DNA of 64,000 nucleotides, taken from Lacibacter cauensis (GTDB taxonomy: Bacteria; Bacteroidota; Bacteroidia; Chitinophagales; Chitinophagaceae). Both the position numbers and the translations under genes were made by a program. The stretch is from positions 186,001-250,000 of the forward strand of contig NZ_VLLE01000006.1 in the NCBI RefSeq assembly GCF_007830055.1, read 5' to 3'. How positions within the stretch are numbered: the first letter of the stretch is position 1; each line of letters opens with the position of its first letter. Below the pieces are notes generated by a model that ran no database searches, had not been told where the DNA came from, and worked only from the letters and a program-made list of their open reading frames with translations. This document shows, piece after piece, positions 17,891 to 31,722 of this stretch.

Positions 17891-17911
17891 ACCCTACAAA
17901 TTTAGTAGAGT
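17891..17911. promoter_or_regulatory. Sulfur operator site A (TonB receptor)
   Basis: ACCCTAC-N7-GTAGAGT. The 7-nt core plus the first base of the arm contains the -7 element TAAATTTG of the receptor promoter on the minus strand, so binding would block initiation. Confidence 0.7.
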
Positions 17912-17928
17912 ATTATATCCCTACCAAA
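17897..17928 (-). promoter_or_regulatory. Bacteroidota-type promoter of the TonB receptor
   Basis: Minus strand TTTG (-33; 17925-17928), 20-nt spacer, TAAATTTG (-7; 17897-17904): an exact match to the TTTG-N19-21-TAnnTTTG consensus. Predicted start of transcription near 17889. Confidence 0.75.
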
Positions 17929-17938
17929 TTAATAGACT
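17918..17938. promoter_or_regulatory. Sulfur operator site B (TonB receptor)
   Basis: TCCCTAC-N7-ATAGACT, a weaker copy 27 bp from site A; it overlaps the -33 TTTG of the receptor promoter. Confidence 0.6.
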
Positions 17939-17971
17939 TTTATTTTCCATTAATGTATTGCATTAAAAGAA

Positions 17972-18007
17972 AAAGGGCGGAAAAACGAGTTCGTTTTTCC
18001 GCCCTTT
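17972..18007 (-). terminator. Terminator of the CysG-N/TSUP fusion gene
   Basis: A 17-bp perfect stem AAAGGGCGGAAAAACGA / its complement with a 2-nt loop, followed by T-rich sequence on the minus strand, 20 nt after the stop codon. Confidence 0.9.
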
Positions 18008-18026
18008 AATTAAGAGTACCGATTAC

Positions 18027-19514
18027 TTAAAACACTTTTACAAGAATGCGCAGACTCCAGATAATCACTAAAATTCCCAAACAGAAAAAGGCCGTTTTCT
18101 TTGGCATTTTACCAGCCAACTTTGCTGCTATTGGTGCTGCAACAAAGCCACCCAGCATTAAAGCAACGATTACCTGCCAATGTGTAACACCTAATAAGGT
18201 AAAAAATGTAAATGCACTTGCCAGTGTTACAAAAAACTCCGTTAAGCTTACCGAACCAATTACATACTTGGGGCTACGGCCTTTGTTTATAAGCGTGGTG
18301 GTAACCAAGGGTCCCCAGCCGCCTCCGCCGAACGAATCTAAAAAACCACCGGCACCTGCGAGCGCACTGTAGTGTTTGAATTTCTTTTGCTGCCGTTGCT
18401 CACGAAATGCATTGATTAAAAACTTCACCCCAAGAAATAATGTGTAACAAGCAAGTAATGCACGTAACCAGATAGCATCTTTATTACCCAGCCAGGTTAA
18501 CAATACAGCACCAAGTATAGCACCAATAACACCGGGTATCACCAATGCTTTGAACAGCTTTTTATTTACGTTTCCAAATTTGTAGTGACTGTAACCAGAA
18601 GCTGCACTTGAAAACACTTCAGCTGTATGTACAGCCCCGCTGATAGCTGCCGGACTAACACCTGCCGACAACAAAACGGTTGCACTGGTTACACCATAAC
18701 CCATTCCTAAAGCTCCATCAACAAGCTGTGCAAGAAAACCTGCCAACATTAACCAATGAAAATTTTTATCGAGTGTTTGATACCATGCTGCAGTATCCGT
18801 AGCAATTTGCCGGAAAGGGATGTATGAAAAAATGAAATGACCCACCAGCATAAATGCAAAAGCAAGCAACGAATAGGTTGCAACTTTTTTCCATTTCTTC
18901 TCTGTACCAATACGATCGTTCTCCACCAATACTTTTGTAATGGAGTTGAGCTTTTTTACTTTGTATTCAAAATTTCCATTGAGCTTATTGCGAACCTTGT
19001 GCAGATTTTCAATCACTTCATCCAACTCATCGGGCAATGCATCGTGCAATACTTCTTTAATGCGCTTGGCCGCAGTAGGCGATTTACCGTTTGTTGAAAT
19101 TGCTACTTTTAAATTTCCCTTCTGCACAATACTACCCAGGTAAAAATCGCAGAGATCAGGTGTATCGGCCACATTCACCAATAATCCTTTGGCTTTTGCC
19201 AGCACTCTTACCTCTTCATGAAGTTTACGATCATCTGTAGCAAGTATAACAAGGTCTTTCTGTTCCAGATCAGTTTCTTCAAATGCTTTTTGTACAATTT
19301 CGCAAGAGGGATGCTTCCACACCAACCGCCGTACTTCTTCTTTAACAACCGGCGCAACAATGGTTACTGCAGCATTGGGCGAATTAGCAAGCAACGAATG
19401 CAGTTTTTCCAAACCCACATTACCGGCACCTACCAGTAACACACGCAACTCTTCCAGTTTTAAGAAAACAGGATATAAGTTATTTTTTGTTGTAACCGGA
19501 TTAGTTGTTTCCAT
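18027..19514 (-). CDS. Fusion: siroheme synthase N-terminal (precorrin-2 dehydrogenase/ferrochelatase) plus TSUP/TauE sulfite exporter
   Basis: 495 residues. Residues ~12-200 are a Met8p/CysG-N domain: LYPVFLKLEELRVLLVGAGNVG, VNVADTPDLCDFYLGSIV (with the catalytic Asp region) and STNGKSPTAAKRIK; it would oxidise precorrin-2 and insert iron to give siroheme. Residues ~215-495 are a multi-spanning TSUP (TauE/SafE) permease: GALGMGYGVTSATVLLSAG and FGGGGWGPLVTTTLI, a family that exports sulfite or organosulfonates. Cobalt/iron chemistry for CysI and export of surplus sulfite are thus in one chain. The start overlaps the end of the DUF2490 gene by 14 nt. Co-location with cysI, cysJ and cobA supports the sulfite role. 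Confidence 0.88.
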   Translation of the reverse strand: METTNPVTTKNNLYPVFLKLEELRVLLVGAGNVGLEKLHSLLANSPNAAVTIVAPVVKEEVRRLVWKHPSCEIVQKAFEETDLEQKDLVILATDDRKLHEEVRVLAKAKGLLVNVADTPDLCDFYLGSIVQKGNLKVAISTNGKSPTAAKRIKEVLHDALPDELDEVIENLHKVRNKLNGNFEYKVKKLNSITKVLVENDRIGTEKKWKKVATYSLLAFAFMLVGHFIFSYIPFRQIATDTAAWYQTLDKNFHWLMLAGFLAQLVDGALGMGYGVTSATVLLSAGVSPAAISGAVHTAEVFSSAASGYSHYKFGNVNKKLFKALVIPGVIGAILGAVLLTWLGNKDAIWLRALLACYTLFLGVKFLINAFREQRQQKKFKHYSALAGAGGFLDSFGGGGWGPLVTTTLINKGRSPKYVIGSVSLTEFFVTLASAFTFFTLLGVTHWQVIVALMLGGFVAAPIAAKLAGKMPKKTAFFCLGILVIIWSLRILVKVF

Positions 19515-30001: not shown

Positions 30002-30187
30002 TTTCTACCTTACCCCTCGTTCCCCTCTCCTGAAGGAGAAGGGAGGCCGAGCGGCATTTTACTTTTTATCTTTTGTAATTAAGCATTTCATCTTTTATCT
30101 CTATTCAACCCTTACAACTTAATCTTACTGATAAACTAAGCGAGGGCGTGTGCTGGTGGCCTCCCTTTAGGGAGGTCGGGAGGGTTT
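30002..30187. repeat. metX-metY spacer with two REP-like palindromes
   Basis: Hairpins CCCTCTCCT-GA-AGGAGAAGG (30023-30043) and CCTCCCT-TT-AGGGAGG (30160-30175) with GGCCGAGCGG and GGTCGGGAGGG next to them are inverted relative to each other around an AT-rich centre. A related short unit (CCCC-GTGAA-GGGG with TCGG) lies at 31582-31598 in the metY leader. Confidence 0.55.
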
Positions 30188-31510
30188 TTATCCTACCAAT
30201 TCCTTTTCTGCAACTTGTTGAAATGCCTGTTCCAGATCTGCTTTAATATCATCGATGTGTTCAATACCTACACTGATGCGTACCAGGTTCGGATCAACAC
30301 CTGCCGCTACCTGTTCAGCTTCGCTCAACTGTTCGTGTGTTGTACTTGCCGGATGAATCGCCAATGTTTTTGCATCACCCACATTTGCCAGGTGACTTAC
30401 CAGTTTTAATGAGTTGATGAATTTGGCAGCGCTTTCTTTACCACCTTTAATAGCCACCTGCAGAATACCACCAAAACCATTGGTTAAATATTTCTTTGCC
30501 AGTTCGTGATAAGGATTGCTTTTTAAACCAGGGTACAATACATATTCAACCGATGGATGTTGCTCCAGCCATTGTGCTAATTCCAGTGCATTTTGTACAT
30601 GGCGTTCAACACGCAGCGACAATGTTTCTAATCCTTGTATTAATAAGAAAGAGTTGAACGGACTTTGCGACGCACCCCAATCACGCAAACCTTCTACACG
30701 TGCACGAATGATGAATGCGATATTGGGTAAGCCGAGCGGATTACCTTCGCCAAACACATCCCAGAATTTTAATCCATGGTAACCTTCACTTGGTTCGGTA
30801 AACTGCGGAAACTTACCATTACCCCAGTTGTAATTACCACCATCAATGATAACACCGCCGATGGTGGTACCATGTCCGCCTATCCATTTGGTTGCACTTT
30901 CTACAACAATGTTTGCACCATGTTCTAACGGGCGGAAGAGATAACCACCTGCACCAAATGTATTATCAACCACTAATGGCAAATCGTATTCTTTTGCCAA
31001 GGCAGCAAACTTTTCAAAATCAGGAATATTTAAACGGGGGTTACCGATTGTTTCAAGATAGATGGCTTTGGTGTTTTTATCGATGAGCTTTGCAAAACTT
31101 TCAACATCATCACCATCAGCAAAACGTGCTTCAATACCTAAACGTTTAAACGAAACTTTAAACTGATTGTAAGTACCGCCGTATAAGTAAGAGGTTGTAA
31201 TAAAATTATCGCCTGCCTGCAAAATATTGCTGAGTGCAAGAAACTGAGCAGCCTGTCCGCTGGCTGTTGCTAAAGCTGCCACACCACCTTCCAATGCTGC
31301 AATGCGTTGTTCAAACACATCGGTAGTCGGGTTCATAATACGGGTGTAAATATTACCAAATGCTTTTAAGCCGAAAAGATTAGCTGCATGTTCGCTGTTA
31401 TCGAAACCATACGAAGTTGTTTGATAAATAGGTACTGCACGTGATTTTGTTGTTGGATCGATTTGCTGACCTGCATGCAGTTGTAATGTCTCAAAACGTA
31501 AAGTGCTCAT
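30188..31510 (-). CDS. metY: O-acetylhomoserine aminocarboxypropyltransferase (sulfhydrylase)
   Basis: 440 residues, the length of the long MetY group. [26 protein letters not shown] at the N-terminus, PLP lysine in [28 protein letters not shown], and a C-terminus like [15 protein letters not shown]. It makes homocysteine from O-acetylhomoserine and sulfide, joining the methionine branch to the sulfide made by CysIJ. Leads the metY-metX-hom-cysH unit and has a remarkably long, structured leader (31511-32130). Confidence 0.94.
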
Positions 31511-31608
31511 AGCTGAATTATTTTAAATGATTGAATAAATAAAAGACTGAAAAGAAAAAGAGAAAAACCGATGTAGTACCTCCCCGTGAAGGGGTCGGAA
31601 ATAGATAT

Positions 31609-31626
31609 GTATGCCTTACGGCATAC
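31609..31626 (-). promoter_or_regulatory. Hairpin spanning the stop codon of the metY leader peptide
   Basis: Minus strand GTATGCC-GTAA-GGCATAC, 7 perfect pairs with a GNRA (GUAA) tetraloop that contains the UAA stop of the leader frame. It starts in the last Cys codon. Confidence 0.65.
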
Positions 31627-31690
31627 AACAAATACAACAACACTGCATGCATGCAGCAAAAGAAGAGTTTGTATAGTTGTTGTTGTACAT
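31616..31690 (-). CDS. Candidate Cys-rich leader peptide of metY (24 aa)
   Basis: ATG at 31690 to TAA at 31616. The peptide begins MYNNNYTNSSFAAC and ends MQCCCICCMP: six Cys, five of them in codons 17-22. The ATG is ~10 nt after the predicted transcription start of the proximal promoter. Codons 2-5 (TACAACAACA) are perfectly complementary to the TGTTGTTGTA of the Cys run, so alternative RNA folds depend on where a ribosome is. This is the layout of a cysteine-sensing leader peptide. Because the pairing strands are low-complexity, chance cannot be excluded. metY starts 105 nt after the stop. Confidence 0.6.
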   Translation of the reverse strand: MYNNNYTNSSFAACMQCCCICCMP

Positions 31691-31701
31691 ATTTATAAAA
31701 G

Positions 31702-31722
31702 ACCCTACAAATGTAGAAGGGT
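31702..31722. promoter_or_regulatory. Sulfur operator site E (metY)
   Basis: ACCCTAC-N7-GAAGGGT. As at site A, the core encloses the -7 element (TACATTTG) of the promoter on the minus strand. Confidence 0.7.

Follow-up and report, generated by a model that had tools for sequence, protein, structure and literature searches.

Palindromic operators, a candidate Rrf2-family repressor and polycysteine leaders in a sulfur gene island of Lacibacter (Bacteroidota)

The sequence considered here (the window) is a 64,000-nucleotide stretch of Lacibacter cauensis (Chitinophagaceae; genome of 4.95 Mb in 10 contigs), corresponding to G000:C5:186001-250000, and it carries a sulfur island whose shared 21-bp palindromes and leader RNAs are our subject. 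The genes of the island and the control elements assigned to them below lie on the minus strand. The metY-metX-hom-cysH unit consists of metY (30188-31510), metX (28949-30001, with a score under the cut-off of its equivalog models) and hom (27685-28947), all assigned by NCBIfam profiles, and the APS/PAPS reductase gene cysH (26948-27682; TIGR02055 over cut-off). The sulfate adenylyltransferase unit comprises cysD (small subunit, 25936-26844; TIGR02039 over cut-off) and cysN (large subunit, 24605-25846; TIGR02034 over cut-off). It is followed by a cobA-cysJ-cysI-DUF2490-[siroheme synthase/TauE fusion] unit, in which cobA encodes a uroporphyrinogen-III methyltransferase, the cysG C-terminal domain (23727-24536; TIGR01469 over cut-off), cysJ the sulfite reductase flavoprotein (21996-23711; PF00258, PF00667, PF00175) and cysI the haemoprotein (20191-21906; PF01077, PF03460), while a single open reading frame (ORF) joins siroheme-synthase N-domains to a TauE sulfite exporter (18027-19514; PF13241, PF14824, PF01925). 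The remaining unit is a TonB-dependent receptor gene (15139-17721, ATG at 17721; PF00593, PF07715). A first-pass annotation, made from the sequence alone, had placed the palindromes upstream of the TonB receptor, cobA-cysJ-cysI, cysD-cysN and metY-metX-hom-cysH, and the Pfam and NCBIfam profile matches bear out these gene contents.

Five sites had been said to fit ACCCTAC-N7-GTAGGGT. Four do so with one mismatch each, namely operators A (17891-17911), C (24553-24573, 16 nt 5' of the cobA start codon), D (26858-26878) and E (31702-31722), whereas site B (17918-17938; AGTCTAT-N7-GTAGGGA) has four mismatches. Allowing up to three mismatches the window contains six matches, against a shuffle mean of 0.97 and with six reached in none of 100 shuffles; the two additional matches, at 20989 (three mismatches) and 56575 (two mismatches), are weaker and lie inside listed ORFs. 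At one mismatch or fewer A, C, D and E are the sole matches in the whole 4.95-Mb genome, all within the sulfur island, and a looser pattern returns the same four; a genome-wide search for copies at random positions therefore gave no refutation. A still looser pattern yielded 36 genome matches, below its reversed control (57), and when 11 of 32 looser hits elsewhere were viewed (L131-L141), 10 fell inside ORFs of at least 120 amino acids. The operators are real, with corrections to the stated pattern, and the original observation as a whole is partly confirmed. Site B is a plausible operator variant, because AGTCTAT-N7-GTAG is kept at the same position in the TonB-receptor promoters of four other same-genus genomes and AGTCTAC/T is a common half-site in the family.

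Promoter boxes were read by eye from the sequence. The excerpted text of PMC7366714 gives a Bacteroides promoter consensus of TAnnTTTG at -7 and TTTG at -33. Operator A overlaps the putative -7 box of the TonB-receptor promoter (TAAATTTG, 17904-17897) and operator E contains that of a metY promoter, P2 (TACATTTG, 31715-31708), in each case with TTTG 20 bp upstream (31739-31736 for P2); the -33 TTTG of promoter A (17928-17925) falls within site B, and operator D lies directly downstream of the putative -7 box TATATTTG (26896-26889), over the expected start of cysDN transcription. No TTTG was seen by eye at -33 for D. The repressor-like placement stands, and with the sites on promoter boxes at A, B and E and over the expected start at D, these positions fit repression by occlusion.

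Conservation within the genus was assessed in 14 genomes including that of the window, several of whose contigs or stretches stop within the island. Sites with at most three mismatches were found at cysD in 10 of the 14, at metY in 7, and at cobA and the TonB receptor in 5 each, with operators A and C each present in four genomes besides our own. Considering only sequences that have a site, and leaving site-less genomes out, half-sites are 94-97% conserved, compared with 59-76% for the 60 bp upstream (8, 5 and 5 sequences); the values are 94% vs 76% for operator A (5 sequences) and 97% vs 59% for operator D (8 sequences). Beyond the genus, we took the 28 best CysD loci (L103-L130) of 74 non-genus genomes with a match in the family search, and defined as uncovered the 27,651 bases of these loci without hits to window sulfur or Rrf2 proteins. 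There the core taken from the window, CTAC-N7-GTAG, is more widespread than any other of 3,840 gapped palindromes (16 sites in 14 of the 28 loci); the 80,952 covered bases of the same loci contain no copy. The family-wide half-site is AGTCTAC or AGTCTAT, the common form that site B retains. The proposed ACCCTAC consensus survives as a shared sulfur-gene operator, in the role of a genus form of a wider AGTCTAC operator. Sites scoring at least 11 occur within 500 bp upstream in 12 of 30 metY loci (10 of 28 non-genus), and 21 of 23 TonB-receptor loci have at least one site within 420 bp upstream, frequently one near -200 and one near -40, although both scores are partly circular, the position weight matrices having been trained in part on sites of loci later scored. 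The same caveat covers the matrix scores at the 80 best Rrf2 loci and at the 23 loci of other families described below. The palindrome rankings make no use of these matrices.

The factor acting at these sites had been guessed to be of a dimeric Rrf2/CymR type, with no such gene in the window. Indeed, the genome's two Rrf2 genes both lie elsewhere. One (L017) was set aside as first candidate because the genes adjoining it were recognised, by eye only, as SUF. The other encodes a 134-residue protein (G000:C5:519549-519950) that is unlinked to the sulfur island and belongs to the Rrf2 superfamily (TIGR00738, 118.1 vs 73.3 bits; PF02082, 116.6 vs 30 bits), while scoring well under the equivalog cut-offs for both CymR (NF047409, 65.1 vs 195 bits) and IscR (TIGR02010, 70.1 vs 207.55 bits). 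Its structural model has a winged-helix fold with a mean predicted local distance difference test (pLDDT) score of 83 (residues 90-99 are below 50), and its best fold match is Bacillus subtilis CymR (Foldseek E 9.6e-9). Four cysteines, C-x8-C-x2-C-x4-C, are invariant in 15 aligned relatives, one of which has one residue more.

Linkage in other genomes ties this protein to the sulfur genes. In a family sample of 117 genomes, 18 have a relative no more than 2.5 kb from cysD, on the same strand in 17 and divergently in G016, the relative in G101 being only 43% identical. Among the 80 best Rrf2 loci, seven show cys genes, and all seven have an operator in the interval separating Rrf2 from cysH. 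Of 23 Rrf2 loci taken from three other families of the class, 21 have a sulfur-gene hit within 1.5 kb (at 45% identity or more in 17); when the 170 bp following Rrf2 were searched in 20 non-redundant loci, CTA-N9-TAG came first among 1,344 palindromes, with an occurrence in 18. Operators also precede Rrf2 itself by 42 and 61 bp in the family loci L154 and L163, both operators being close to a divergent ORF as well. Defining as Rrf2-bearing those genomes with a match above a chosen cut of about 97 bits, an AGTCTAC site occurs in 45 of 79 genomes with Rrf2 and 4 of 38 without (p about 1e-6), and 118 of the 124 family sites fall in the former. The earlier guess has thereby gained a specific gene, supported by linkage and fold, and it is likely that the operators are bound by this unlinked CymR-fold protein. 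Autoregulation was looked for at the gene in the window's genome, and none was seen.

The units behind A and E share a further feature. A polycysteine ORF, MYNNNYTNSSFAACMQCCCICCMP (including MQCCCICCMP; 31616-31690), starts 11 bases after operator E, and a similar ORF, MKQITPFNAHLVMRFTSATRCCAFAC (including ATRCCAFAC; 17808-17888), starts 2 bases after operator A, its ATG being close to the transcription start estimated from the -7 box. ORFs like the latter (...SATRCCMCNC and similar) are present in L090, L091, L092 and L096. Counting ORFs whose last 14 residues include four or more Cys, we find one ahead of cysH in 12 of 28 non-genus loci; the antisense strand gives 1, and 200 rounds of shuffling give a mean of 0.07 and never more than 1. 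For metY the count is 14 in the 28 best of 51 non-genus genomes with a match, against 1 for antisense and a shuffle mean of 0.045 with a maximum of 1. None was found in 207 control leaders of rrf2, cysJ, cysN, hom and metX, a number in which some genomes are counted twice. Under a looser criterion of at least three Cys, 7 of 23 TonB-receptor leaders contain one. The cysH and metY leaders thus show the richness in Cys codons that characterises leader-peptide attenuators.

The metY leader terminates in a predicted hairpin, UGUAUGCC-GUAA-GGCAUACA (31608-31627), which spans the last leader codons and holds the stop codon in its loop. Such a hairpin is usual for metY leaders (mean z -3.1, n=26, ten of them same-genus), the stop codon being unpaired in 21 and the loop often GNRA, and its AUGCC/GGCAU stem is nearly invariant in 18 aligned leaders, with little covariation (one of five pairs). 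By contrast, cysH leaders do not have it (mean z -1.0, n=12). A covariance model of this hairpin, R1, matched 23 of 296 Bacteroidota genomes at E <= 0.01, and it was rejected: besides the window's own match only those in G022 and G410 are supportable; of the other loci viewed, L310, L316 and L320 have a Cys-rich ORF without a sulfur gene and the remainder have neither, and cysH leaders are recovered only near noise.

G410, which belongs to another Bacteroidota family, has upstream of a metY homologue a Cys leader, an intrinsic terminator and an S-adenosylmethionine (SAM) riboswitch, in that order. Folding of this one sequence with assumed ribosome footprints predicts a 10-bp antiterminator for a ribosome placed over the Cys codons; with the ribosome at the stop codon, or without one, the terminator is predicted instead. 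At locus L361, of another Bacteroidota family, a Cys leader ORF, an intrinsic terminator and a SAM riboswitch stand in tandem (2161-2424) before an ORF, which we take to be CoA-binding, and a metY homologue. Intrinsic terminators were also looked for in Chitinophagaceae leaders, where they were mostly not found.

A SAM (S-box) riboswitch lies upstream of metY in the window as well (31947-32061; Rfam RF00162, 81.7 bits vs a gathering threshold of 44.4), with a putative distal promoter, P1, read from the sequence as TTTG-N21-TACTTTTG (32097-32129), and a terminator-like hairpin after it (31881-31911). All seven same-genus metY loci scanned have the riboswitch, as do 10 of the 20 others. P2 starts downstream of the riboswitch's terminator-like hairpin, so that metY-metX-hom-cysH transcripts from this promoter, the one at operator E, would bypass the riboswitch. 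The single circuit first envisaged had overlooked both this riboswitch and the polycysteine leaders after A and E; what emerges instead is a repressor together with RNA-level and probably translation-level sensors.

We therefore propose that the 21-bp palindromes are operators of the unlinked 134-residue repressor of CymR/IscR fold, a dimer of which would block the -33 and -7 boxes at A, B and E and the transcription start at D. Under sulfur or cysteine shortage the repressor would be released, allowing transcription of the units for sulfate assimilation, siroheme, methionine and the TonB receptor, with P2 yielding a metY-metX-hom-cysH transcript that lacks the riboswitch. Transcripts from E and A would start close to the AUG of the cysteine-rich leader ORF, so that ribosome progress over its Cys codons could report charged tRNA-Cys, and this readout would set the share of transcript, or of its translation, that continues into the gene. 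Taken as a combination of Rrf2 repression and cysteine-codon attenuation with a SAM riboswitch upstream, this reading has in our estimation a probability of roughly 0.77, with binding, signal, transcription starts and attenuation all inferred; the earlier interpretation as a whole is partly supported.

A number of observations nevertheless count against it. Operator C has no recognisable promoter, and by eye a hairpin and T-run after cysN lie directly upstream. Conservation is imperfect: the cysD site is found in 10 of 14 same-genus genomes, none with three mismatches or fewer was found in G119, G120, G122 and G123, and in Lacibacter luteus (L091) and G118 (L096), which keep the -7 box and leader, only a degenerate operator precedes metY. 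Nor do pattern counts alone serve as proof, given that across the 117 family genomes AGTCTAC sites are in no bulk excess (124 vs 155 for the reversed control), and that the ACCCTAC form, without visible excess, is matched in 29 genomes, with a window sulfur protein or Rrf2 nearby in only 4 of 28 loci viewed; the evidence is consequently carried by position and gene context. With regard to the regulator, cys genes are missing from the available stretch at 73 of the 80 best Rrf2 loci, some of which are truncated by contig ends, and downstream of Rrf2 the four-base-arm palindrome CTAC-N7-GTAG does no better than a tie (5 of 20; top 6). There is no operator within four mismatches at this genome's own Rrf2 gene (L016), and the DNA upstream of Rrf2 in the 23 other-family loci yields no conspicuous palindrome, so that autoregulation is not general. 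Rrf2-bearing genomes are richer in the reversed control pattern too (p 0.006), and genome size may therefore confound the association between site and Rrf2.

Similar reservations apply to the leaders. A T6 run occurs in only 2 of 16 metY and none of 12 cysH leaders of Chitinophagaceae, and a terminator of the G410 type therefore does not explain the leaders of the window, for which Rho or a translational effect would be needed. Leader DNA after the ORF is C-rich and G-poor in this family (27% C vs 12% G for metY, 24% vs 10% for cysH), a skew that would suit Rho-dependent termination and that is absent from cysH leaders without a Cys ORF (20% vs 19%, n=16); however, metY leaders without a Cys ORF are skewed too (22% vs 13%). 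In the cysH leaders of L124 and L121, the start of the leader ORF (TTGATGGT) could pair over a long range with a stretch just before cysH (ACCATCAA).

Alternative explanations of the DNA sites concern either the protein or the nature of the element. The palindromes might belong to another dimeric regulator, Rrf2 controlling something else and standing near cysHD through operon history, as could be argued from the unlinked, operator-free Rrf2 gene of this genome and from G023, an assembly of about 300 contigs with three AGTCTAC sites and no Rrf2 match in the search. Set against the operator between Rrf2 and cysH in every one of the seven linked loci, the CTA-N9-TAG palindrome after Rrf2 in other families, the operators before Rrf2 in L154 and L163 and the concentration of family sites in Rrf2-bearing genomes, we regard this as rather unlikely. 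It is less likely still that sites C and D are RNA hairpins of a 5' leader instead of DNA operators: both do lie just before start codons, and the cobA palindrome of the window runs on into its spacer (CTACTC-NNN-GAGTAG), yet at A, B and E the same half-sites coincide with the -7 and -33 boxes, a position transcribed in part at most, and the spacers of non-genus cysD sites vary, by eye, between genomes.

For the leaders, the TGT-rich stretch and hairpin could form a pure RNA element within an untranslated ORF, and the near invariance of the metY hairpin, together with its being read in another frame in L267 and L278, would agree with this. We nonetheless consider it unlikely, in view of the mixed use of Cys codons (TGT 98, TGC 33), the presence in cysH leaders of the Cys run without the hairpin, and leader length differences within the genus that look, by eye, like multiples of three. 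Translated leaders might instead sense something other than cysteine, for example a metal or oxidant by which the Cys-rich nascent peptide is stalled or bound. Such peptides could in general bind metals, and models of siderophore and heme receptors give hits to the TonB receptor, albeit all far under their cut-offs. Yet the genes that carry the leaders (cysH, metY and the TonB receptor) are members of a sulfur regulon, the leaders have little sequence in common between gene types beyond their Cys codons, and a tRNA-Cys gene lies beside the TonB receptor in several genera, all of which makes a non-cysteine signal distinctly unlikely.

Serial control by repressor and cysteine-codon leader may extend beyond this genus. 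We tentatively suggest, at slightly less than even confidence, a system found across the class in Bacteroidota, in which one promoter would be read by two serial sensors, a four-cysteine Rrf2 repressor with its operator across the -7 box and a near-leaderless polycysteine ORF that begins where the operator ends and attenuates metY, cysH and the TonB receptor according to the supply of Cys-tRNA (in Chitinophagaceae via Rho or translation), with the metY branch bypassing the riboswitch and tRNA-Cys possibly within the regulon.

Several known systems invite comparison. CymR of Bacillus and Staphylococcus is the Rrf2-family cysteine regulator of a sulfur regulon and works with CysK as co-repressor. 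The candidate resembles it in its fold and in a sulfur regulon with repressor-like operator placement, and differs in sequence (26% identity, and the low equivalog score given above) and in the four invariant cysteines of its relatives. It shares with IscR the fold and Cys residues after the DNA-binding domain, whose spacing differs from that of IscR; it also falls far below the IscR equivalog cut-off, its targets are sulfur and not iron-sulfur (Fe-S) genes, and a separate Rrf2 adjoins the SUF-like genes. At the DNA level, the CC-N13-GG spacing of ACCCTAC-N7-GTAGGGT equals that of the IscR motif AxxxCCxxAxxxxxxxTAxGGxxxT as it appears in the excerpt of PMC4169559. The riboswitch resembles a standard SAM-I element in its RF00162 match and following terminator-like hairpin, and the arrangement differs in the second, operator-controlled promoter between riboswitch and metY.

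Mycobacterial polycysteine leaderless short ORFs are reportedly cysteine-responsive operon attenuators, going by the title of work by Canestrari and colleagues from 2020. The likeness lies in a short Cys-run ORF at or near the transcript start, whereas the leaders described here belong to another phylum and are combined with Rrf2 operators; some of them also accompany a SAM riboswitch, and those of metY have a hairpin at the stop codon. The occurrence of polycysteine attenuators in mycobacteria and of putative ones in another phylum suggests convergent evolution. In a limited, mainly open-access literature search we found no description of a sulfur regulator, this one included, or of Cys leaders, for Bacteroidota. 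Excerpts of PMC9723704 mention 'strong clues' of leader-peptide attenuation before amino-acid operons in Flavobacterium psychrophilum, and those of PMC7366714 leader-like short ORFs in Bacteroides, so part of the Cys-leader finding may already be listed in one or the other. For Bacteroidota sulfur genes, our results put forward a specific candidate protein together with its operator and regulon, and a proposed second layer of control that can be tested.

Directly 3' of the TonB receptor and on the same strand, ARAGORN predicts a tRNA-Cys (GCA) gene (14993-15064). The same neighbour is found in 6 of 23 TonB-receptor loci including the window's own (the same-genus G083 and four other genera), and in two of four further same-genus stretches (G117 and G127; absent there in G126 and G118). 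Since this gene lies at the end of the TonB-receptor unit, cysteine decoding capacity may itself belong to the regulon.

Other genes are associated with the operator in relatives. Behind ACCCTAC-type sites we find an S-adenosylmethionine synthetase (L019) and a homocysteine methyltransferase (L020), and of 30 loci fetched with the AGTCTAC pattern, 15 have a window-protein or Rrf2 hit within 1.5 kb (L162 weakly). A Pfam scan of ORFs at 11 of these 30 loci identified PhyH oxygenases (four), fatty-acid hydroxylases (two) and DUF2490 (one), the remaining ORFs (DAHP synthase, HAD hydrolase, AraC regulator and others) having no evident sulfur link. Together with the TonB receptor beside tRNA-Cys, the first three families hint at further parts for sulfur uptake or use. 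The PhyH-type genes follow AGTCTAC operators in L142, L151, L160 and L167, the last three also with leader ORFs that have at least three Cys near their end, and we would guess that they encode organosulfur oxygenases. In L155, L156 and L164 an ORF begins 14-16 bp after the operator, in L155 and L164 of the fatty-acid-hydroxylase family, and a tie to sulfonolipids is likewise a guess. Lastly, the window contains two DUF2490 proteins, one near the TonB receptor (14218-15042) and one in the cys operon (19501-20187); a DUF2490 gene of G018 (L144) has an operator 14 bp away, and L143 has a DUF2490-like gene with an Rrf2 paralogue and an operator nearby.

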